64,000 bases of DNA, from NCBI GenBank assembly GCA_902518835.1, contig CABYHH010000002.1:1-64000 (forward strand). Reading direction: 5' to 3'. The notes below the pieces were generated by a model. It had not been told where the DNA came from, searched no databases, and was given only the letters and a program-made list of their open reading frames with translations. Below, piece after piece: positions 51,349 to 62,259 of the stretch (positions within the stretch are counted from its first letter, which is position 1; each line of letters starts with the position of its first letter). Position numbers and translations under genes: made by a program. This stretch comes from an uncultured Pelagibacteraceae bacterium. GTDB lineage: Bacteria; Pseudomonadota; Alphaproteobacteria; Pelagibacterales; Pelagibacteraceae.

Positions 51349-51717
51349 TCAATATTTATTTCGCCAATAGTACTCTTTACTTCTTATTGTATCGCATTCA
51401 GAACAATTACTTCTTTTTTTATTAGTCGAACCATATTTATCATTTGGAAACTCATCTAATGATTTAAATTTTTTACAAATTGAGCATTGCAATTTATCAT
51501 TTTTATATTTTTTTTGATTACCAACATTTTTGAATATTAAACCTTGTCTTTCGGTCTCTGACCTTGTTAATATTTTGATTTTGTTATTTTTTCCTTCTCC
51601 TCTAAGATCTTTTTTAGTCCAGGTTGGATGTTGGTTAATTATTTTTTGAATTTCTTCGTCACTTCTAGTAATCCATTGATTAGAGCCCTTTGGATTTCTA
51701 TTAAAATTTTTAACCAT
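51349..51717 (-). CDS. Small zinc-ribbon protein next to the C5 methyltransferase
   Basis: A 122-residue basic protein. Its C-terminal half holds two CxxC pairs (CSICKKFKSLDEF and CSECDTIRSKEYY). This knuckle commonly precedes HNH endonuclease domains, but the HNH catalytic residues themselves are not visible. The N-terminal half (NQWITRSDEEIQKIINQHP) is unfamiliar and mentions no known motif. It lies 5 nt after the methyltransferase in the same direction, so a role in target recognition or as a partner of the methyltransferase is an inference. Confidence 0.65.
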   Translation of the reverse strand: MVKNFNRNPKGSNQWITRSDEEIQKIINQHPTWTKKDLRGEGKNNKIKILTRSETERQGLIFKNVGNQKKYKNDKLQCSICKKFKSLDEFPNDKYGSTNKKRSNCSECDTIRSKEYYWRNKY

Positions 51718-51722
51718 AAATT

Positions 51723-52916
51723 TTAATCATTAAAATTAAATTTCATTTGTGGTCCTAATTCTTCTTTTCCTGTGAAGTATAAATCTTTACCTTTTGCCTT
51801 TATCATCCAGTCATGATGATATGAGATTAGTTTTTTATTTTCTTTTAGGGTCTTTTTGACTGCTTTCATTATTTTTTCTGCTCCTAATACAGGTACAGCC
51901 ATTCCAATTTGTCTTCTAACAGATTCTTTTCCCCCTACAAAATTGTAGGTGAATGGAAAAGTTTGTAAAGTTGCTCGCTCTCTATTAGTCAATGCTCTAT
52001 TTTCTTTATAATGATATACATGCGTTCCACCACCTCCACTTCCTGTGACAGTATAGGCAGGTTTAGAACTATCTAGTCTTTTATAGATGTGGCTCATTCT
52101 TGCTTTTTTAACTCCAGGAAGACCGTCTTCATCGTCACCTAAATCCCATACATTTTTACCTTCAGCTGTTTTTTTTAGTCTTCTTATAACTCTTTCATCA
52201 TGTTTAGTTTTTTCCGTATGTTCCATTCCATCAGGAATCTCATTCAAAGCTTCTTTACATGTCTTGAAAGGCCCTTTATTTTTTTCAGGTTTTTCAAAAT
52301 TAATTTTATTTTTCCTAAAATAATCTTCTCTAAAACCAACAAGTATAATTCTATGTCTTGTTTGAGGTATGCCGTATTCTTCAAATTTGTAATTATCTGC
52401 ATAAATCCTATATCCATGTTTAGAACAATTGGCTAAATCACCCATTATCTTTTTAAAATTTTGATAATTTTGGTTTTGAAGTTTTTCTTTATTAAAAACT
52501 TCTTTTACTAATACTTGTTCTGAAGAATTAAATTTAAGTTTTTTACTTAAAGAAGTAACATTTTCTGCAACAAAAAATTCTGGTTCAAAAAAGTTAAGAA
52601 CTTTACATGCATATCTATAAAGTCCTCCAAATTTCCCCTCCATTTTTTTGTTTTTTCCAACTAGACTAAAATCATTGCAGGGAAATCCAAATAAAAGACC
52701 ATTAATTTTTCCAAAATCTTTCTTTACTTTTTCGAGCCTTTTCGGCTTTGAAAAATCCTCTATTTTTTCATGAAAAGCCTCACATTTTTGATTATTTTTA
52801 AAGGTTTCACAAGAATCTTTATGAATATCAACTCCCCAAATATGCTTAAATCCTGCCCTTTTAGCTCCTTCAGCAAAACCTCCAGCTCCACAAAATAATT
52901 CAGCAATTTTTAACAT
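51723..52916 (-). CDS. DNA (cytosine-5) methyltransferase
   Basis: A 397-residue C5 DNA methyltransferase. Motif I is ELFCGAGGFAEGAKRAGF, motif IV GFPCNDFSLVG with nucleophile Cys80, motif VI FVAENVTS and motif VIII QTRHRIILVGF. The late motifs IX-X lie around NRERATLQTFPFTY and RRQIGMAVPV. The Asn after the catalytic Cys (PCN rather than PCQ) marks a subfamily often seen in defence loci. It would methylate host DNA at an unknown site. It is divergent from the ATPase-Vsr operon and is the likely protective component. Confidence 0.93.
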   Translation of the reverse strand: MLKIAELFCGAGGFAEGAKRAGFKHIWGVDIHKDSCETFKNNQKCEAFHEKIEDFSKPKRLEKVKKDFGKINGLLFGFPCNDFSLVGKNKKMEGKFGGLYRYACKVLNFFEPEFFVAENVTSLSKKLKFNSSEQVLVKEVFNKEKLQNQNYQNFKKIMGDLANCSKHGYRIYADNYKFEEYGIPQTRHRIILVGFREDYFRKNKINFEKPEKNKGPFKTCKEALNEIPDGMEHTEKTKHDERVIRRLKKTAEGKNVWDLGDDEDGLPGVKKARMSHIYKRLDSSKPAYTVTGSGGGGTHVYHYKENRALTNRERATLQTFPFTYNFVGGKESVRRQIGMAVPVLGAEKIMKAVKKTLKENKKLISYHHDWMIKAKGKDLYFTGKEELGPQMKFNFND

Positions 52917-53015: not shown

Positions 53016-53321
53016 ATGGAAATGAAAAAAATTGTTGATTTTAGAGGTCCAAGAAAAAAAACAAAAGGCTGGGGCCCAGAGAAAAAATTTAGAGAATTTG
53101 CGGCCATTAGAGTCCCAAAATTACTAAGAGCATTAAAAAATGTCCAAAACTTATCCACAGTTTACAATGAAAAAACTAAAATTGGCTACAGATATTCTGA
53201 TGCTGAAAGAAAGAAAATTTTAAAAGATGTTAAGGAAGCTTATCAAGCTATGATGAAGGCTTGGGAGAATGCAGGTAAAAAAATTAAAGAAAAAGAAAAA
53301 AAATCATATTGGGATGAATAA
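53016..53321 (+). CDS. 101-aa helical protein heading the defence operon, unknown
   Basis: A small basic protein of unknown family. The N-terminus (DFRGPRKKTKGWGPEKKF) is Arg/Lys/Gly-rich and could contact nucleic acid. The rest is predicted helical, with a conserved-looking YSDAERKKILKDVKEAYQAMM segment. It is the first plus-strand ORF after the 99-nt AT-rich divergent gap with the methyltransferase. It could be a regulator or accessory subunit; nothing in the sequence decides this. Confidence 0.6.
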   Translation: MEMKKIVDFRGPRKKTKGWGPEKKFREFAAIRVPKLLRALKNVQNLSTVYNEKTKIGYRYSDAERKKILKDVKEAYQAMMKAWENAGKKIKEKEKKSYWDE

Positions 53322-53565
53322 AATTAATAAATTTGACGAATTGATGCACATTAAAAAGAAGGGGTTATCATACACGGTATACAGCTATATCGATAGAACA
53401 TCAGGGATACCTCTTGCCAGCGTGCATCCTGGTTTTCTATTGCCCTCATGTTCAAAAGTTGTTTTAAGCATGTTAACTATGCAAACTTTAATGCGTGCAA
53501 AGCTACAGCTTTCTTTCTTTCTATGTAGCTTGTACGCGTTAAAAAATAACCACAAAGGAGTTTAA
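53314..53565 (+). CDS. Doubtful 83-codon ORF across the structured segment
   Basis: The frame from ATG 53314 is open to a TAA that abuts the ATG of the next gene. It overlaps the 101-aa gene by 8 nt. The first ~40 residues look protein-like, but the rest (KVVLSMLTMQTLMRAKLQ) coincides with several RNA hairpins and a local GC rise. It may be coding, or the segment may act as RNA. The track start 15 codons upstream is less likely. Confidence 0.25.
   Translation: MNKINKFDELMHIKKKGLSYTVYSYIDRTSGIPLASVHPGFLLPSCSKVVLSMLTMQTLMRAKLQLSFFLCSLYALKNNHKGV
53396..53539 (+). other. Structured, locally GC-rich segment (candidate ncRNA or leader)
   Basis: Three consecutive hairpins occur in 144 nt. The first pairs GAACATCAGGG with CCCTCATGTTC (10 of 11 pairs) around an inner CCAG/CTGG hairpin. 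The second involves AAAGTT/AACTTT with an inner GCAT/ATGC. The third is a 16-bp stem with one bulge (ATGCGTGCAAAGCTACA against TGTAGCTTGTACGCGT) and a CTTT-repeat loop. The first element is about half GC in an AT-rich region. A strong AAAGGAG site follows just before the 94-aa gene. No known RNA family was recognised. Confidence 0.5.
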
Positions 53566-53850
53566 ATGAAAAAAGATTATTTCCATTCTTGTTTACAGGA
53601 TAGATTGCAATACGCTCAAGAGTTTGCAAAAGATTACACAATATACCTACGAAGTGTTGAATTTACAAAAAAAGCAGAATCAGAGTTTTATAGAAATAAT
53701 AAGATATTATTTTTGTTAAACAAAATTCTTAATTTACCAACTAATACACTAAAATTTTTCAAAGTTTTAAAAAGCAGGTTTATTTTGAGCAAATGCCTAA
53801 ATGAAATTGAGGTGATCAAAAAAGAATTAAAGGCTTACGAGGAAAATTAA
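53566..53850 (+). CDS. 94-aa protein coupled to the GHKL ATPase, unknown
   Basis: A helical, charged protein with an N-terminal SCLQDRLQYAQEFAKDYTIYLR helix, a more hydrophobic middle (ILFLLNKILNLPTNTLKFF) and a Glu/Lys-rich C-terminal helix. No family is recognised. It has an unusually strong Shine-Dalgarno (AAAGGAG, 6 nt before ATG) and its stop shares a base with the ATPase start (TAATG), so it is made together with the ATPase. A role as partner or regulator of the ATPase is an inference. Confidence 0.6.
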   Translation: MKKDYFHSCLQDRLQYAQEFAKDYTIYLRSVEFTKKAESEFYRNNKILFLLNKILNLPTNTLKFFKVLKSRFILSKCLNEIEVIKKELKAYEEN

Positions 53851-55982
53851 TGCTAAAATTTATTCCTGATAAATACTCTGGTGGAAAAGTAATAGATCCA
53901 ACCCCACATCAAAAATTTGAAAAACCTGATAACTGTATTTTAGAGTGTGTTCAAAATGCAATTGATGCTGCTATCGAACAAAATAAAGAAAGGAAAACAA
54001 CTAAATTAAGTTTTCAATTCAAAATGATTAAAAAAGATGATTGTTCATTTTTTGATAAAAACTTTGAAAAACATCTTAATGAAAGAAGATATAACAAAAG
54101 AACAAATTTTACGTCTGATATTCCATGTTTAATTATGGAGGATTTTAATACAACTGGTATTACTGGGGATCCTGAAAAACTTGATGAGGAGACTGACTCA
54201 GGAGAGAGAAATAATTGGTATTATTTTCTACATGACTTTGGAGGTAAATCAAAACTTGAAGATCATACTAAAGGAGGAAGTGAAGGTGAAGGTATGCAAA
54301 CTTTCATGCTTAACTCAGGCATATCAACTTTTTTTGGTCTTTCAGTTGATTCTACGAACAATAATAGAGCTAGTATTTTTGGAATGTCTTATTTCGGTTC
54401 AAGAAAAGTTGATGGTTTAAGATATGGAGTTTTTGCTTCTTTTGGAAAAGAAAAAGAAATAGATGGAAACAAAGAATGTGTACCAGAAAACGATCCTACT
54501 AAAGTAAAAAATTTCATTACTCTTTTTGGTTTAAAAAGAGGCATTTCTGACTCAGGGACGAGTATTATTATTCCTTTTTATAATAGAGAAGAAATAGATG
54601 AAAAATTTATTATTCAGAAACTTTTAGATATTTACAGAGTTCCGATTTTTAGAAATCAACTTGAAGTTCAAGTAGGGAGTGTAACAATAAATCATGAAAC
54701 AATTCAAAAATTAGCGATAGATAATGAAGAAGGCCTTGCAAATAAAAGATTATGTGACGATTATTTTAATTTTTTATCTGAAATTAAAAACAGACCAGAC
54801 AGCACTAATACTTACGAATTAGTTTTTTATGATCAAGATGATTTAAAAAAACAAGACATAAGTTCATTTGATAAATTAGTTGAAGAGTTTAATTCATATA
54901 AACTATTGCAACTTCGAGTTAAATTCCAAATTAAAAAGTATCAACAAAATTCTAAAACAAGAACCATAGACTCTCATACTTATTATGATGTTTTTTTTAA
55001 GAAATATCCAGCAGCAGTGGATAACCTAAGAGAGACATTTAATGATTTTATTAGAGGGCCAATGCCACTATACAAAAGAAGAAATAAGCAGTGTACAATG
55101 TTTCATTTAGTAGATGTGCAAGATAAACATGTTGCCCTTTTGTTTAAACACGCAGAACAAGCTAACCATTCAGAAATTAGTGCTGATAACTGGAAATTAA
55201 AAGAAGATTATAAAGGTTTTAGAAAGATAATTCTTTTATCAAGAAATATAACCACAAAAATTTATAGACTTATCACCCTTGAGAATACCGAAGAAGATTT
55301 TGAGGCTACTCAGGATCTTTTTAAAATCAACGAAGAAGGTTTTGGTCAAAATGAGGAAGATGAGGATCTAGGAGTTGATGAAGAAAACAAAGAAGAAAAA
55401 GAAAATAAAGACAAATCAAAAACAAAAGTTACTCATATTATTGTTCCACCAATATTTAAAGGATTAAAGAAATATGAAGTGTCTCAGAATAACGAAAAAG
55501 ATGGCACTATAACATACAAATTAAAAGGAATTTCTTATGATAAAAATAAAATTAAAGAGTCAATTGAAAAAGCACAGAATTATTTGGAAGAAACAAAAAA
55601 AATAGATATTACAAAATACACAGATGAACTAGGTAAGAAACAACTAGATCTAATGCAAACAACCATCGCAAAGTATGAAAAAAGGATAATCGAATACCAA
55701 AATTTTTTGACTGATGGCTGTACATTTTTTCCAAGAAGAATTGTGATCGAAGCAGCTTATGATTCCGAGGGGTTATCAAATCCTTTTAAAAGATACAGTA
55801 TCAGAGATTTTGATTTTTCTGATGAAGAATTCAAAATAAATATGAAAAATGTCAAAGGTATAGAAAAAAATTATAATCAAATTGTTTTTTTTGTTCACGA
55901 TCCAAAATTTGAATTTAGTGTAAATGGTTTTGGTGAAGGAATTGAAGATATAAGATGGAGAGATAGAAATTATAGCTTATAA
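53850..55982 (+). CDS. GHKL (MORC/MutL-like) ATPase of a defence locus
   Basis: A 710-residue protein whose N-terminal ~240 residues form a Bergerat-fold ATPase. The N-box is ECVQNAIDA (Glu32, Asn36, Asp39), the G1-like motif EDFNTTGITGD (Asp98, Gly103) and the glycine-rich ATP lid KGGSEGEGMQTF (141-152). The EDFxTTGLTGD pattern marks the MORC/MutL-like group associated with restriction-modification loci (described by Iyer, Abhiman and Aravind, 2008). The C-terminal part has an acidic Glu/Asp/Lys-rich linker (about 500-530) and further alpha/beta segments of unknown fold. It is likely the dimerising, ATP-gated core of the system. It overlaps the 94-aa gene by 1 nt and is 2 nt before the 284-aa gene. 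Confidence 0.82.
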   Translation: MLKFIPDKYSGGKVIDPTPHQKFEKPDNCILECVQNAIDAAIEQNKERKTTKLSFQFKMIKKDDCSFFDKNFEKHLNERRYNKRTNFTSDIPCLIMEDFNTTGITGDPEKLDEETDSGERNNWYYFLHDFGGKSKLEDHTKGGSEGEGMQTFMLNSGISTFFGLSVDSTNNNRASIFGMSYFGSRKVDGLRYGVFASFGKEKEIDGNKECVPENDPTKVKNFITLFGLKRGISDSGTSIIIPFYNREEIDEKFIIQKLLDIYRVPIFRNQLEVQVGSVTINHETIQKLAIDNEEGLANKRLCDDYFNFLSEIKNRPDSTNTYELVFYDQDDLKKQDISSFDKLVEEFNSYKLLQLRVKFQIKKYQQNSKTRTIDSHTYYDVFFKKYPAAVDNLRETFNDFIRGPMPLYKRRNKQCTMFHLVDVQDKHVALLFKHAEQANHSEISADNWKLKEDYKGFRKIILLSRNITTKIYRLITLENTEEDFEATQDLFKINEEGFGQNEEDEDLGVDEENKEEKENKDKSKTKVTHIIVPPIFKGLKKYEVSQNNEKDGTITYKLKGISYDKNKIKESIEKAQNYLEETKKIDITKYTDELGKKQLDLMQTTIAKYEKRIIEYQNFLTDGCTFFPRRIVIEAAYDSEGLSNPFKRYSIRDFDFSDEEFKINMKNVKGIEKNYNQIVFFVHDPKFEFSVNGFGEGIEDIRWRDRNYSL

Positions 55983-55984
55983 AT

Positions 55985-56839
55985 ATGACACAAGTAGTAT
56001 CTAACAGAACAGGAAGAGAAAAGATAATTACCGCCGAAGGTGAGAATACTGAATTTTCAGTAGAAGTTAAAAAACAAAAAAATTTACTAAGAGTGAGATC
56101 TTCTATAAAATTAAGCAAAGATCACAATTTTAAAGATTATTATAAAATTTTTCTACAAGCTTATGAGTCAGGAGGAATAGCTAAAGAGCCTTGGTCTTTA
56201 GGTACCGTTGGTGATACAGGAGAATTTGAATTTAGTATTGATAATATTAGTTACGATACATTATTATTTAGATTAAAAATTATAGATAGTTCTAATTTTG
56301 TAAAAGGATATGCAGAAGAAATAAGACCTAACGTAGAAAGTAGTGGGAAGGATAAAAGATCAAATGATTCAGAAATTTCAAACACACTCCTTCCTATAAG
56401 AGAAACAGATAAAATTTCATTACCATTTGCTGTTGAAATGAGTCCGGATAGTAAACCTATTTTGTTGGTAAAAAGTAAGTTAAATTTAAAAGAGCAGTTT
56501 AAGCACGATATTAAAACAAAAGTTTTTATTTATACTTCTGTAATAAAACAAATCTTAACAATTTATCTATCAGATAATAATTTTAAAAATTGTTATGAAA
56601 AAAAAAGGTTTATCAATAAAGTCATAAGCAATACTGGAACAGATCCAGATCTTGTAGAAATTCCTAATTATTTTGATGAAAATAATAATATCAATCAAGA
56701 AGCACTAGATTGGATAGATAATATTACATCTGAATGTTTAAATAATCCTGTGGAGTTTAAAGGTAAAAAAATTAATTACATAACTGTTTTTGAAAAATAT
56801 TGCAGAGAAGAAAGGTTTGACGAAGAAGATGAAGATTAG
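55985..56839 (+). CDS. 284-aa orphan protein in the ATPase-Vsr operon
   Basis: The N-terminal ~110 residues are rich in beta-strand-like alternation (KIITAEGENTEFSVEVKKQ, TLLFRLKIIDSSNF). A Ser/Asp/Lys linker follows, then an alpha-helical C-terminal part with VFIYTSVIKQILTIYLSD and a very acidic end (FDEEDED). No catalytic motif or known family is recognised. The position directly after the GHKL ATPase and an 11-nt overlap with the DUF6339-like gene indicate a structural or adaptor subunit (inference). Confidence 0.65.
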   Translation: MTQVVSNRTGREKIITAEGENTEFSVEVKKQKNLLRVRSSIKLSKDHNFKDYYKIFLQAYESGGIAKEPWSLGTVGDTGEFEFSIDNISYDTLLFRLKIIDSSNFVKGYAEEIRPNVESSGKDKRSNDSEISNTLLPIRETDKISLPFAVEMSPDSKPILLVKSKLNLKEQFKHDIKTKVFIYTSVIKQILTIYLSDNNFKNCYEKKRFINKVISNTGTDPDLVEIPNYFDENNNINQEALDWIDNITSECLNNPVEFKGKKINYITVFEKYCREERFDEEDED

Positions 56840-57617
56840 AAAGTTTAATTCAGAGGGTCATAATAAATGGGTAGAATTATATAATGAGTTATTTGTAGAG
56901 ATAAAAAGAATTTCCAAAGGATCAAAAATTTCTCCAGAGGATATTAAGAAGGGGTACAACAAACACTTTAAAGAAAAATATGAATTAATAAAAAATTCAA
57001 ATGATTTTTCTGAAGAATTGTCAAATAGTAAAGATTTTAAAGTTAAAAATTTCGATAACTCTTATGAATTAGCAAAAAGCATCAATATTGCTTTATCAGA
57101 GTATAACTTTTATGAAATAGATAGATCAGAAATTTGGGATTGGATTGCGATGATCTTATTTGATCAAATTTTTGTTCCAGGAAAAATCAGGGGAGCTTCT
57201 CCATATAGATATGTTGTAAATATAAACGATTTTTTTACTAGTTTTAGACATTTAATAAGAGGTCCTTGTTGGGCAGAAAATCAGTTTAAAGAAAATTCTA
57301 AGATTTTTACACATACAAAGCCATATCAGCAAAATGACTGGCTAGAGCAATTTATTAAAGTTTCTTTTTTAAGAGAAATGAAAGTTATGGGACAAGTTTG
57401 TTCAGAATTATATTTCGACTATAAAAAAAATGAGGCAATTCAAGGAACTAGTAAAGCTCCAGGTAATGACCCTGATAAGCCAGGAATTTTTCCTAGATTA
57501 AGAAATAAATTATCACAATTTAATAAAGTAAAATATTTATGGGGAATGAGTGCAGAAGAAATAATCAAGATGCTACCTAAGGAGTTTAATAATTACAAAA
57601 AGAATATTACAAAATGA
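56829..57617 (+). CDS. DUF6339-like protein of the defence operon
   Basis: I choose ATG 56829, which gives 262 residues and an 11-nt overlap with the previous gene, over the track start 13 codons upstream. The central motif EIWDWIAMILFDQ (about 101-113), followed by RGASPYRYVV and FRHLIRGPCW (139-148), has the W-x-W...FDQ...RY...RHLxxGP pattern I associate with DUF6339. Members occur beside GHKL ATPases, C5 methyltransferases and Vsr nucleases. The activity is unknown. The family assignment is from memory of the motif and needs a profile search. Confidence 0.6.
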   Translation: MKIRKFNSEGHNKWVELYNELFVEIKRISKGSKISPEDIKKGYNKHFKEKYELIKNSNDFSEELSNSKDFKVKNFDNSYELAKSINIALSEYNFYEIDRSEIWDWIAMILFDQIFVPGKIRGASPYRYVVNINDFFTSFRHLIRGPCWAENQFKENSKIFTHTKPYQQNDWLEQFIKVSFLREMKVMGQVCSELYFDYKKNEAIQGTSKAPGNDPDKPGIFPRLRNKLSQFNKVKYLWGMSAEEIIKMLPKEFNNYKKNITK

Positions 57618-58093
57618 ATTCAACTTTTGATTTATTAATAAAAAATTTAGAAACTTCTCATAAGGATAGACTTCTGTGGTTTCAAAAAAATAAGAATGAA
57701 GAATTTAATGGATGGTTACCTAGTTATGATGAAGATAAACTTTTAGCCACTAAGGCAAAAGGTATTTATAAACCAAAAGAATTAAAATATGCTTTAAGTA
57801 TTAGAATGACAAAAGATGGCCCTTATGAAGATAAAATTGAAAATAAAGAAGAAAATAAAGTATTTACAATAAAATATTTTCAAGAAAATAAAAATATTAG
57901 AGAAAGAGATACAGAGTATACAAACCTAGGATTAAAAAAATGTATGATTGATAATGTACCTATTGGAATTATCAAACAATTAGAAAAAAAACCAAATAGT
58001 AAGTACCAAGTAATTGGAACTGGAATAATAAAAAAATGGGAAAATGGATATTATCATATAAATGTTTTTGATGCCCAGGGAGAAATTGGATGA
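57614..58093 (+). CDS. Small SRA/PUA-like protein, possible modified-base reader
   Basis: A 159-residue protein with KAKGIYKPKELKYALSIR (47-64), a DGPYEDK stretch, and a C-terminal VIGTGIIKKWENGYYHINV strand pair. This GIYKP...YALSIR pattern resembles SRA/YDG-type (PUA-superfamily) domains of modification-dependent restriction enzymes, which bind methylated bases. No nuclease motif is present, so it would be a stand-alone reader. It overlaps its neighbours by 4 nt on both sides. The domain call is tentative; DUF would be the fallback. Confidence 0.5.
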   Translation: MNSTFDLLIKNLETSHKDRLLWFQKNKNEEFNGWLPSYDEDKLLATKAKGIYKPKELKYALSIRMTKDGPYEDKIENKEENKVFTIKYFQENKNIRERDTEYTNLGLKKCMIDNVPIGIIKQLEKKPNSKYQVIGTGIIKKWENGYYHINVFDAQGEIG

Positions 58094-58458
58094 GCATTTC
58101 AAAAAATACCAAACCAGAAAAATTAATTAGATCTAAACTATATAAAAATGGTTATAGATTTAGAATTCATGTAAAAAAACTTCCTGGTAAACCAGATATT
58201 GTTCTGCATAAACATAAAACAATTCTAAATGTTCATGGTTGCTATTGGCATTATCATGGCTGCGCTCATAGCAATGTGCCAAAGACAAAAACTCAATATT
58301 GGATAGAAAGATTAGAACTTAATAAGAAAAGGGATTTTGTTAATAAAAATAAATTAATAAAATTAGGTTGGAAAGTCATTGATGTATGGGAGTGTACTTT
58401 AAAAGGAAAGAATATTGATAAAACTTTTAACACTCTGGAACGTCTAATCATTGCCTAA
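58090..58458 (+). CDS. vsr: Vsr-family (very short patch repair) endonuclease
   Basis: A 122-residue Vsr-type endonuclease. All key pieces are visible: NTKPE with Glu10, LPGKPDIVL with the metal-binding Asp36, VHGCYWHYHGC with His49 and the second His region, and GWKVIDVWECTL. Classical Vsr nicks T:G mismatches from 5-methylcytosine deamination next to Dcm sites; in GHKL-ATPase loci it is thought to serve as the DNA-cleaving effector. It is a little shorter than E. coli Vsr at the N-terminus. It starts by ATGA overlap with the SRA-like gene. Confidence 0.92.
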   Translation: MSISKNTKPEKLIRSKLYKNGYRFRIHVKKLPGKPDIVLHKHKTILNVHGCYWHYHGCAHSNVPKTKTQYWIERLELNKKRDFVNKNKLIKLGWKVIDVWECTLKGKNIDKTFNTLERLIIA

Positions 58459-58992: not shown

Positions 58993-60090
58993 ATGGATAC
59001 AATTTTAATAATAATTTTAGGTTTATTGCTTATAGCAACATTAGCAATTCTTTATTTGAACATTAAGTCTAAAACTAAAAAAGAAGATGAAAATAAAGAG
59101 GCTGAAGAAATAGCTAATTTAAATGCAGAAATTGTAAAACTCAAAGATAGCTTAAATGCTACAATCAATACCTCATTAAGTTCTATGTCTACTTCGTTTA
59201 ATGCCTTATCAACTGGTGTTACAAAAGACATGACTGAGGCTTTAACTAAGGTTGATGAAAAGGTTGGAAATTTTAATCAACAGGTTCAATTGCTAAATCA
59301 AAGCCAAGAAGGTATTACAAAAATACTTGCTGGTGTTAAGAAATATGGTGTTTTAGCAGAGAGCAGCCTTGATGCGCTTATGAGGGATTTATTACCCGCA
59401 TCTCAATTTATGACTAATGTGAAGATGAAAGAGGATACTAGTGAGAATGTGGAATTTGCTATCAAACTTCAAGGAGATGTTTTGGTCCCAGTGGACTCTC
59501 ATTTTCCGGTAGAAAAATTTAAAGCAATTACTGATGCACATGAGGCAGATGATAAAAAAGCAGTTGCTGATGCTAGAGCAAAATTGGCAAGCGCTTTTAA
59601 GTTGAAAGCAAAAAGCGTTAATGAGAAGTATATAGTACCACCAAAAACAACTGATTTTGCCATTGTTTATGCAGCCTCAGAAAGTCTTTACAGAGAATTA
59701 ACCGAGTATCAAGATCCAAGTACAAAAGAATTACTCACTCAAGAATTGATGAGAAAATATAAAATTGTTATTTGTGGTCCTAATACCCTGTCAGCTTATT
59801 TACAATCTTTACACATGGGTTTTCAATCATTGAAAGTTCAAAAAGGCGCAGTGGAAATTTATAACCATTTAAAAACAATCAGCACAAGATTTGCTAAACA
59901 TTTTGACAATGTAATAGTTTTAAGAAAAAAACTAGATGAAGCAATGAGTGTTGTTGATAAGTTTGGAACTGACGCAAGATCAATTACAAGAACTTTAGAA
60001 AATATTAAAGATCCCGAGCAAGTTGAAAAAGCCATACTAACGGAGAACGTTGAGAATTTTGTTGAGAGAAATAAACAAGTTAAAAAATAA
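58993..60090 (+). CDS. rmuC: DNA recombination protein RmuC
   Basis: A 365-residue RmuC family protein: an N-terminal membrane anchor (TILIIILGLLLIATLAILYL), a coiled-coil region (about 30-110) and a C-terminal nuclease-like domain. VPVDSHFPVEKFKAI corresponds to the family IDxKFP motif and IVPPKTTDFAIVY to the conserved PxxxDFxxxF region. RmuC limits recombination at inverted repeats and is proposed to be a membrane-tethered nuclease. It is shorter than E. coli RmuC (475). It begins the DNA-processing trio with the two downstream nucleases. Confidence 0.85.
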   Translation: MDTILIIILGLLLIATLAILYLNIKSKTKKEDENKEAEEIANLNAEIVKLKDSLNATINTSLSSMSTSFNALSTGVTKDMTEALTKVDEKVGNFNQQVQLLNQSQEGITKILAGVKKYGVLAESSLDALMRDLLPASQFMTNVKMKEDTSENVEFAIKLQGDVLVPVDSHFPVEKFKAITDAHEADDKKAVADARAKLASAFKLKAKSVNEKYIVPPKTTDFAIVYAASESLYRELTEYQDPSTKELLTQELMRKYKIVICGPNTLSAYLQSLHMGFQSLKVQKGAVEIYNHLKTISTRFAKHFDNVIVLRKKLDEAMSVVDKFGTDARSITRTLENIKDPEQVEKAILTENVENFVERNKQVKK

Positions 60091-60127
60091 TTTCTTTTTT
60101 CACATATTACCGACTATAAGAAATCAC

Positions 60128-60814
60128 ATGCGCTGGAATAAGAAATACAATTATCCATCAAGTTCAAGGGCTACCGAAGATGGAATAAGAAGATATGTTT
60201 TAGGAGAGGCAAAATTACCAAGTGTAACGTCAATACTTGATGCAACAAAGTCAGAGGAGGATAAAGCAGCGTTAGCAAATTGGCGAGAAAGAACTGGCCA
60301 TAAAGAGGCTGAAGCTATTACAAAAGCGGCCAGTAGTAGAGGTTCTCAGATGCACAGCTATTTAGAATCTTTTCTTTTAGGAAGAGAAAATTTAAGTTTC
60401 TTTGAAGATAGTGAACAATATAAAAAAATGGCAAAAGAAATAATTGACAAAGGTTTAACAAACAGATTAGAGGAAATATATGGTGTGGAATGTACAATGC
60501 ATTACCCTGAAAAATATGCAGGAACAGCAGATTGCGTTGGTGTTTATGAGGGAAAAGAAACTATTATTGATTTCAAACAATCCAATAAACCAAAAAAAGC
60601 TGAATATATAGACTCTTGGTTTTTACAAACTGCTGCTTATTCTTTAGCACACAATGTTGTTTATAATTCAAATATCAACGCTTGCGTTGTTCTTGTATGC
60701 ACTGTAGATAATTTGTTTCAAGAGTTTAAAATTCAAGGACCTGAATTAGTAACTTATCAAAATTTATTTCTTGGAAGACTTAAAAAATTTAATGAACTTA
60801 CAAATTTGGAGTAG
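60128..60814 (+). CDS. RecB-like PD-(D/E)XK nuclease (phage-exonuclease-like)
   Basis: I choose ATG 60128 (228 residues) because the track start lies inside rmuC and adds an unrelated segment. The nuclease core is visible: GSQMHSYLE (His76), AGTADCVGVY (Asp135) and ETIIDFKQSNK (Asp148, Lys150), followed by the QTAAYSLAHN helix typical of RecB/lambda-exo-type enzymes. Similar stand-alone nucleases occur in marine phages, so a viral origin is possible. It is 8 nt before the ExoI-like gene. Confidence 0.78.
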   Translation: MRWNKKYNYPSSSRATEDGIRRYVLGEAKLPSVTSILDATKSEEDKAALANWRERTGHKEAEAITKAASSRGSQMHSYLESFLLGRENLSFFEDSEQYKKMAKEIIDKGLTNRLEEIYGVECTMHYPEKYAGTADCVGVYEGKETIIDFKQSNKPKKAEYIDSWFLQTAAYSLAHNVVYNSNINACVVLVCTVDNLFQEFKIQGPELVTYQNLFLGRLKKFNELTNLE

Positions 60815-60822
60815 TGTAAATA

Positions 60823-62259
60823 ATGGATAAAATAGTAATTTATGATACCGAAACAACCAATAGTACTATTTGGGGATCAATAATTGAAGTAGGTGCTGTT
60901 GTTGTTGATAAAAATCTTAAAGAGATTGGAAAATTAAATATCAGAGGCAGAATGCCAGAAGGAGAGGTGCCCAGTGCAAAGGCCTTACTTGTTAATTCAA
61001 CTAGCATTGATTTACTTACCAAAGGCAATTATTCACATTACGATTTTTTAGGTGCTGTTGAAAATTTTTTCACAAAGTGTGCTCCCGCAGTATTTATGGG
61101 TTGGTCAAATTTAAATTTTGATCGAAGAATGTTCCACTTTAATTTTTTTAAGGGTAATCGGTATCCTTATGCTACCCACTCATCGCCCAATAGTGAACAT
61201 GATGGTTTGCACATAGCTAGAGCAGCCCAAACATTAAACTCAGAGACCCTAAAAACAGAGCTAACCGAAGCAGGTAATCCAAGTCTTGCTTTGGAATCTT
61301 TGTCTAGAATGCAAGGTTTTGACACTTCAGCTAGCCATACAGCCTATGTTGATGCACAGAATTCACTGAAGGTTTTAAGAATTATAAAAGACAAACATAA
61401 AGAAAATTGGGATACGTTTTTAAAGACATCAACAAAGACTAGCGTTGAAACATTTTTAAAAAATGAAGGTATTTACTCAGTATTTGAAAATGTGAAGGGT
61501 AGAAATATGATGTATCTTACTGGCACTCTTCATCCAAATCATTGCTTTCATCCATCTTATGCATCTTGGGGATATGTTTGGGATTTAAGAAGGGATCCAG
61601 AACCATTATTAAACTTAACGGTAAATCAATTAAGAGATGTACTAAAAAAATATAGTCCTAAGGCTTTGAGAGTTTTAAAAACTAATAAAGCTCCAGTAAT
61701 TTTAGACAAACAATTCGCTATTAAACAGAAACCTTATTCAGATTTAGATTTAGTAACAATTCAAAAAAGAGCAAAACTTGTTAGAGAAAATGAGAATTTT
61801 TGTAAGAATATTCAAGTTATAAATAGAGAAGCTGCAGAGGAAAAGGAGCAAACAAAAACTCAAGAAGATTTATTACCAGAGGAAACTCTTTATGAGAAAT
61901 TTATTCCAAACAGAGATACATCATTATTTAAAACATGGCACAGTTCGTCATGGGAAGATAAATTAAGAATGTTAGATAAATTTACAGATAAAAGATGTAG
62001 TTGGTTTGGACAAAAAATTATTTATCAAGAAGCTCCTCAAATTTTGCCACCTGATTTATATAAAAATATTAAAAGTGAAATCGCAAGACGGATTCTAAGT
62101 AAAAACAAAGAAAAATGGCAAACTGTTAATATGGCATATACTGAAATTGATTATTTAAGAGATCAAGCTTCAAATAGAGATGATGAAAAAGAATTAAAAA
62201 AATTAGATGAAATTAATGAATTTATTATGTCGATTGAGAAAAAATATGAAATTACCTAG
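60823..62259 (+). CDS. sbcB: Exodeoxyribonuclease I-like 3'-5' exonuclease
   Basis: A 478-residue DnaQ-fold exonuclease of the length of E. coli ExoI (475). The DEDDh residues are in YDTETTN (Asp8, Glu10), SNLNFDRRMF and SHTAYVDAQNSLKVL. The C-terminal half (HPNHCFHPSYASWGYVWDLR, PLLNLTVNQLRDVL) corresponds to the ExoI SH3-like and helical domains that clamp ssDNA. It would degrade single-stranded DNA 3' to 5'. It follows the PD-(D/E)XK gene, consistent with a joint role in processing DNA ends. Confidence 0.82.
   Translation: MDKIVIYDTETTNSTIWGSIIEVGAVVVDKNLKEIGKLNIRGRMPEGEVPSAKALLVNSTSIDLLTKGNYSHYDFLGAVENFFTKCAPAVFMGWSNLNFDRRMFHFNFFKGNRYPYATHSSPNSEHDGLHIARAAQTLNSETLKTELTEAGNPSLALESLSRMQGFDTSASHTAYVDAQNSLKVLRIIKDKHKENWDTFLKTSTKTSVETFLKNEGIYSVFENVKGRNMMYLTGTLHPNHCFHPSYASWGYVWDLRRDPEPLLNLTVNQLRDVLKKYSPKALRVLKTNKAPVILDKQFAIKQKPYSDLDLVTIQKRAKLVRENENFCKNIQVINREAAEEKEQTKTQEDLLPEETLYEKFIPNRDTSLFKTWHSSSWEDKLRMLDKFTDKRCSWFGQKIIYQEAPQILPPDLYKNIKSEIARRILSKNKEKWQTVNMAYTEIDYLRDQASNRDDEKELKKLDEINEFIMSIEKKYEIT

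Follow-up and report, generated by a model that had tools for sequence, protein, structure and literature searches.

Organization of the operon

The locus lies in a window (the whole stretch of DNA analysed, 64,000 nt) with a GC content of 29%, which belongs to a SAR11 genome of approximately 1.0 Mb in 42 contigs. Starting from a divergent C5-methylase gene (dcm), the operon consists of a small gene, an RNA element, the S94 gene, a GHKL ATPase gene, the genes of two further proteins, an SRA-like gene, and a Vsr gene. The protein genes are as follows.

51723-52916, − strand: C5-cytosine methyltransferase (dcm), divergent; Pfam PF00145, E = 2e-57
53016-53321, + strand: first small operon gene (S101), 101 aa; homologues 75-79% identical in L012 and L026
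53566-53850, + strand: S94, 94-aa gene, helical hairpin; AlphaFold pLDDT 93, helices 2-41 and 57-93
53850-55982, + strand: GHKL/paraMORC-type ATPase, 710 aa; PADLOC PDC-M33A, E = 1.2e-15
55985-56839, + strand: 284-aa protein, hypervariable cassette; 19-54% identity between loci
56832-57617, + strand: 261-aa protein, hypervariable cassette; 23-62% identity between loci
57614-58093, + strand: 159-aa protein, weak SRA-like match; Pfam SAD_SRA, E = 0.006, below cut-off
58090-58458, + strand: Vsr-family endonuclease; Pfam PF03852, E = 9e-21; TIGR00632 above cut-off

Judged from these predicted products, the host operon is a paraMORC-type restriction-modification arrangement, in which a GHKL ATPase with an S5-type domain is combined with a C5-methylase and a Vsr nuclease. 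The Foldseek matches of the ATPase (model pLDDT of 60 overall) were TRAP1/Hsp90, topoisomerase VI, and GyrB, which point to a GHKL plus S5-type domain. In the available part of Iyer et al. (2008, PMC2292703), paraMORC/MORC-type restriction-modification operons are described with the same three components, that is, the GHKL+S5 ATPase, the C5-methylase, and the Vsr-family nuclease, and Candidatus Pelagibacter is included in the neighbourhood figure. No RNA is mentioned in that part of the paper; the present operon has the S94 family and the RNA as extra components, and no SFII helicase is adjacent to it.

The ATG of S94 at 53566 is preceded by AAAGGAG, the strong Shine-Dalgarno sequence already recognised in the earlier note on this DNA. 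S94 shows 72-89% identity among the loci with a type A RNA (see below) and about 30% identity to the 108-aa gene (S108) of the type B loci. A structure search with S94 gave coiled-coil hairpins only: a ROP variant at an E value of 2.5 was not significant, and no RNA-binding fold was recognisable. The position of S101 is occupied by other small genes in the remaining copies of the operon.

Several other genes were seen around the locus. A small HNH/endonuclease-VII-like protein is encoded behind the methylase gene (51349-51717, − strand); it is also found in L023 and not in the other loci compared. The defence operon is followed by RmuC-like, PD-(D/E)xK-like, and exonuclease-I-like genes (58993-62259; translations inspected by eye), and genes like these flank the locus in L011, L013, and L015. 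In L015, a stand-alone second member of the S94 family (1686-2027, − strand; 113 aa, 31% identical) adjoins the exonuclease-like gene.

Structure and distribution of the RNA element

The earlier note described three adjacent hairpins at 53396-53539, and the folding of this segment bore them out: the minimum free energy was -44.6 kcal/mol (z = -5.28), and none of 200 shuffled sequences was as stable. On refolding, the last hairpin had 16 pairs with one bulge, as described. The GC-rich patch is also present, with 28 G or C among the 55 nt of 53396-53450. The z values of four folds, including that of the window hairpins, were all below the shuffles (-5.3, -3.1, -3.2, and -5.8).

The extent of the element is different from that proposed. 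The 12 Pelagibacter copies including that of the window can be aligned without gaps over 209 nt (53338-53546); the conserved element starts about 60 nt upstream of the hairpins and ends near 53546. Its parts are listed below.

53338-53546, + strand: whole structured RNA element, type A; ungapped alignment of 12 copies, covariance model R1
53343-53349, + strand: 5' strand of P1 (GATGCAC), pairs with 53422-53428 (GTGCATC); pseudoknot helix, 100% paired in 15 copies
53359-53365, + strand: 5' strand of P2 (AAGGGGT), pairs with 53409-53415 (ACCTCTT); pseudoknot helix
53375-53392, + strand: SL0 hairpin (CGGUR...YAUCG); 5 pairs, all kept, one compensatory
53396-53453, + strand: stem 1 (hairpin 1 of the earlier note); strands 53396-53408 with 53442-53453
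53416-53433, + strand: inner hairpin (GCCAG/CUGGU); paired in all 15 copies, 7 of 8 loop bases form P1
53468-53482, + strand: hairpin 2 (GCAUG:UAUGC); window copy only, the other 11 type A copies read GCAAG...UAUGC
53486-53544, + strand: H3, 3' hairpin (hairpin 3 of the earlier note); consensus of 21 pairs with one bulge, type A only

The core is composed of five helices, to which the long 3' hairpin is added. The stem 1 loop contains the inner hairpin together with the 3' strands of P2 and P1; the upstream strands of these two helices pair with them and form a pseudoknot with hairpin 1. This pseudoknot was missed when the region was seen as a chain of hairpins, since the 5' sides of both helices are outside 53396-53539. 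Within that chain, hairpin 1 is conserved, hairpin 3 is kept in type A, and hairpin 2 is a feature of the window copy only. In H3, 98% of the cells are paired in the 12 copies; the hairpin is absent in type B. An alternative 5' hairpin (5-33) given by RNAalifold was set aside, as by eye it is not kept in type B.

Two more Pelagibacter copies, with 81-84% identity, came from a family-wide DNA search. When genome contigs were scanned with the pattern of one conserved loop, 11 loci were obtained, all in Pelagibacteraceae and including both of these copies. With the covariance model R1, diverged copies were found in three genomes of another Pelagibacteraceae genus at E values of about 1e-12. In total there are 15 copies: 12 distinct type A copies in Pelagibacter and three type B copies in this second genus. 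According to R1, the RNA is present in 9 of 399 genomes of the genus (approximately 2%), as a single copy in each. No further true copy was found in a search of the order and the second genus, where the weak matches had no core; L038 and L039 (another family) and L044 (second genus) were rejected for this reason. Every copy found is in the sense orientation and in the same kind of operon only. The Rfam search suggested in the earlier note returned no family: there was nothing relevant in Rfam 15, either at the gathering score or in E-value mode. Searches of phage, plasmid, and viral collections with the RNA, the ATPase, and S94 gave nothing relevant, one of them yielding only short weak matches.

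Covariation and strand

Most of the helix sequences differ between types A and B, with pairing retained, and compensatory changes are found in every core helix. Stem 1 is replaced in type B by a different 12-bp helix; eight of its pairs are changed on both sides, compared with 1.0 ± 0.9 in the null. The inner hairpin is changed from GCCAG:CUGGU in type A to GCCAU:RUGGU in type B (GC to UA/UG). P1 is changed from GAUGCAC:GUGCAUC to GAUGCAA:UUGCAUC (C-G to A-U). For P2, the consensus is AAGRGGU:ACCUCUU, with six of the seven pairs kept in all copies and two compensatory pairs in type B; between the types, AAGAGGU:ACCUCU (A) becomes GGAAGA:UCUUCU (B).

Over the whole structure, 95% of the cells are paired and 16 pairs are changed on both sides, and none of 500 shuffles was as high. 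When the structure was slid along the alignment as a control, 28-49% of the cells were paired in the 12 copies and 31-48% in the 15 copies. In the tree-aware null, in which the tree was kept and the substitutions were moved (2000 simulations), 2.5 ± 1.4 double-change pairs were obtained in the core (maximum 7), against the 13 observed, several of which have their double changes on the one branch between types A and B; the paired cells were 63% in this null and 94% in the observation. A covariation check on homologous loci, there by R-scape, was proposed in the earlier note; the present tree-aware comparison speaks for conserved pairing. P1 and P2 were outside the model that made the alignment. 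Taken alone, their 13 pairs are 100% paired with three double changes, P1 having one varying pair only, and none of 5000 simulations reached both values.

There are 75 G-U cells and 15 A-C cells, which means that the + strand is the functional one. An antisense RNA was rejected on the same ground, since the G-U pairs fall on the + strand. From this comparative evidence, it is concluded that 53338-53546 encodes a + strand structured RNA that is absent from Rfam 15. Of the readings offered in the earlier note, a regulatory leader or a small RNA component is supported as a class, in view of the compensatory stems and the restriction to one kind of operon.

Variation of the operon across loci

The dcm, Vsr, and S94 genes and the RNA stay alike across loci, whereas the ATPase and the 284-aa and 261-aa proteins are swapped. 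This has the appearance of cassette swapping at a fixed site (53850-57617 and the counterparts in L011, L012, L013, L015, L017, and L020-L027). The identity of the swapped cassette is about 20-43% among type A loci, compared with mostly 76-89% for dcm and 88-96% for Vsr.

The RNA itself is not fixed with respect to S94. It is upstream of S94 in type A and downstream of the S94 homologue in type B, and in L012, where S94 is absent, it is directly before the ATPase. At every locus with the ATPase in view, the RNA is upstream of the ATPase (15 loci, with differing ATPases). Given this variable position, the RNA does not belong as a leader to any single gene, and the assignment to the 94-aa gene in the earlier note was too narrow.

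In a genus sample, all six genomes with the ATPase family are among the RNA-positive genomes of the R1 search. The exception is L014 of the same genus: the protein system is present, the RNA and S94/S108 are both missing, and no RNA was detected even with the search filters off. An unrelated small open frame (L014 3700-3866) was seen at the site of the RNA and S94.

Possible role of the RNA

The reading that we prefer, with a probability of roughly one half, is a cis-acting regulatory RNA that would control the downstream ATPase-nuclease genes. An open frame runs through the element.

53317-53565, + strand: open frame overlapping the element, 82 codons and a stop; uninterrupted in every copy, no protein-level constraint

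There is no U-tract and no terminator prediction 3' of H3 (the sole + strand terminator prediction is within the inner hairpin), which suggests that the RNA is embedded in the mRNA. This, together with the open frame, favours control in cis. The RNA would be co-transcribed with the operon; from its place after the first small gene and before the ATPase-nuclease genes, it would set the output of the downstream, potentially dangerous part. It might fold or unfold on the passage or binding of a ribosome or of an operon protein. Ribosomes finishing the first gene would be let through, so that polarity is avoided; the peptide itself would be irrelevant. The open frame might be explained by this passage of ribosomes after the first gene. 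Three observations are against control in cis. The next gene is not constant, being S94, the ATPase, or different ATPases; the RNA is missing from the protein system of L014; and by eye, no helix sequestering the Shine-Dalgarno sequence was seen.

RNA antitoxins and RNA cofactors bind protein partners. Processing of the operon mRNA into a trans-acting or scaffold RNA, which binds S94 or the ATPase complex, is a serious but less probable alternative. It is favoured by the freedom of position, as the RNA keeps no fixed downstream neighbour (upstream of S94, downstream of its homologue, or beside the ATPase), and by the joint absence of the RNA and S94/S108 from L014. The strict co-occurrence with the defence system, the large pseudoknotted core, and the small helical hairpin of S94 also fit it. 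However, neither a terminator nor a promoter of its own stands out, tandem units are absent, S94 has no recognisable RNA-binding fold, L012 carries the RNA without S94, and the frame is kept open. A somewhat more doubtful possibility is that the RNA is a working component of the system, such as a cofactor, an RNA antitoxin, or a sensor of the ATPase-nuclease complex, perhaps bound to S94.

It is improbable that the open frame is primarily a small protein gene, the hairpins in its coding sequence being regulatory or incidental. In all 15 copies the frame is open, and it fills the space between the flanking genes: its start often overlaps the preceding stop, and its stop adjoins the next start. 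The length is about 73-83 aa in type A and 50-58 aa in type B, and the net indel between the types is divisible by three. Among 107 inferred substitutions no stop was gained, compared with 4.4 expected (P = 0.013). These points would suit a gene. On the other hand, the dN/dS of the frame was 0.54-0.64 in the three-genome comparison, compared with 0.08-0.2 in dcm, Vsr, S94, and S101; for G308-G382 it was 0.47. The dS of the frame (0.3) is low beside those of dcm (0.7-1.4) and S101 (1.3), which means that the nucleotides are held rather than the amino acids. By BLOSUM score, the amino acid substitutions are not conservative beyond chance expectation (P = 0.99), and the codon score was -0.27 bits, resembling a wrong frame, compared with 0.25 ± 0.11 in real genes, on codon statistics drawn from the 64,000-nt window. 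The product has no family match. The high dN/dS and the non-coding codon usage thus argue that the frame is not an ordinary gene. Most changes within the 83-codon frame are non-synonymous, with the stems kept, the reverse of codon-wise conservation with broken stems, which that note had named as speaking against a structured RNA. Selection seems to act at the RNA level; ribosomes may pass through the frame, and translation through the element is perhaps tolerated or needed. Programmed frameshifting was dropped, as inspection of the A-rich run by eye showed no conserved slippery heptamer in the frame concerned.

The remnant of a mobile-element end, MITE-like or a repeat, can be practically dismissed: a GC-rich palindromic stretch amid AT-rich DNA in few genomes would suit it, but each genome has one copy at the same fixed place, target duplication is absent, the phage, plasmid, and viral collections gave none, and the helices change with compensation.

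Comparison with known systems

Defence by CRISPR, retron, DRT, type III toxin-antitoxin, and AbiF systems is known to involve RNA, and translational control by a pseudoknot plus a leader ORF is known in IncI repY/repZ. The proposed control in cis resembles the IncI case in that an open frame overlaps a pseudoknot upstream of the controlled gene, while there is no homology and no antisense RNA was seen here.

The RNAs of type III toxin-antitoxin systems (ToxIN, PMC5772629) and the AbiF RNA RCd22 (PMC12373285) are likewise co-transcribed structured (pseudoknot) RNAs adjoining a defence gene. Unlike these, the present RNA has no tandem units and no terminator between the RNA and the gene. No ToxN/CptN/TenpN-type ribonuclease or Abi_2 homologue is adjacent; the helical hairpin S94 shows no match of this kind.

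GC-rich structured RNAs have been described in the AT-rich genome of Ca. Pelagibacter ubique (Meyer et al. 2009, PMC2704228), and one of these motifs, two stems in series, is between rnhB1 and a DNA methylase gene. The present element is similar in being a GC-rich structured RNA in an AT-rich SAR11 genome with a methylase nearby. It differs from the rnhB1/methylase motif in its pseudoknot and in its place, a defence operon near hisG, and it has no Rfam match. A literature search, which covered few subscription papers, gave no report of an RNA in C5-methylase, paraMORC, or Vsr systems.

Taken together, the defence operon is of a known kind and carries a structured RNA that is new and whose function we infer from sequence comparison. 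The helices are short and exactly defined, and are suited to mutation. The strict association of a conserved RNA with such an operon in abundant ocean bacteria suggests that these systems are RNA-controlled or RNA-assisted. If the RNA is a working component, this would be RNA-dependent restriction-like immunity of a type not described before.
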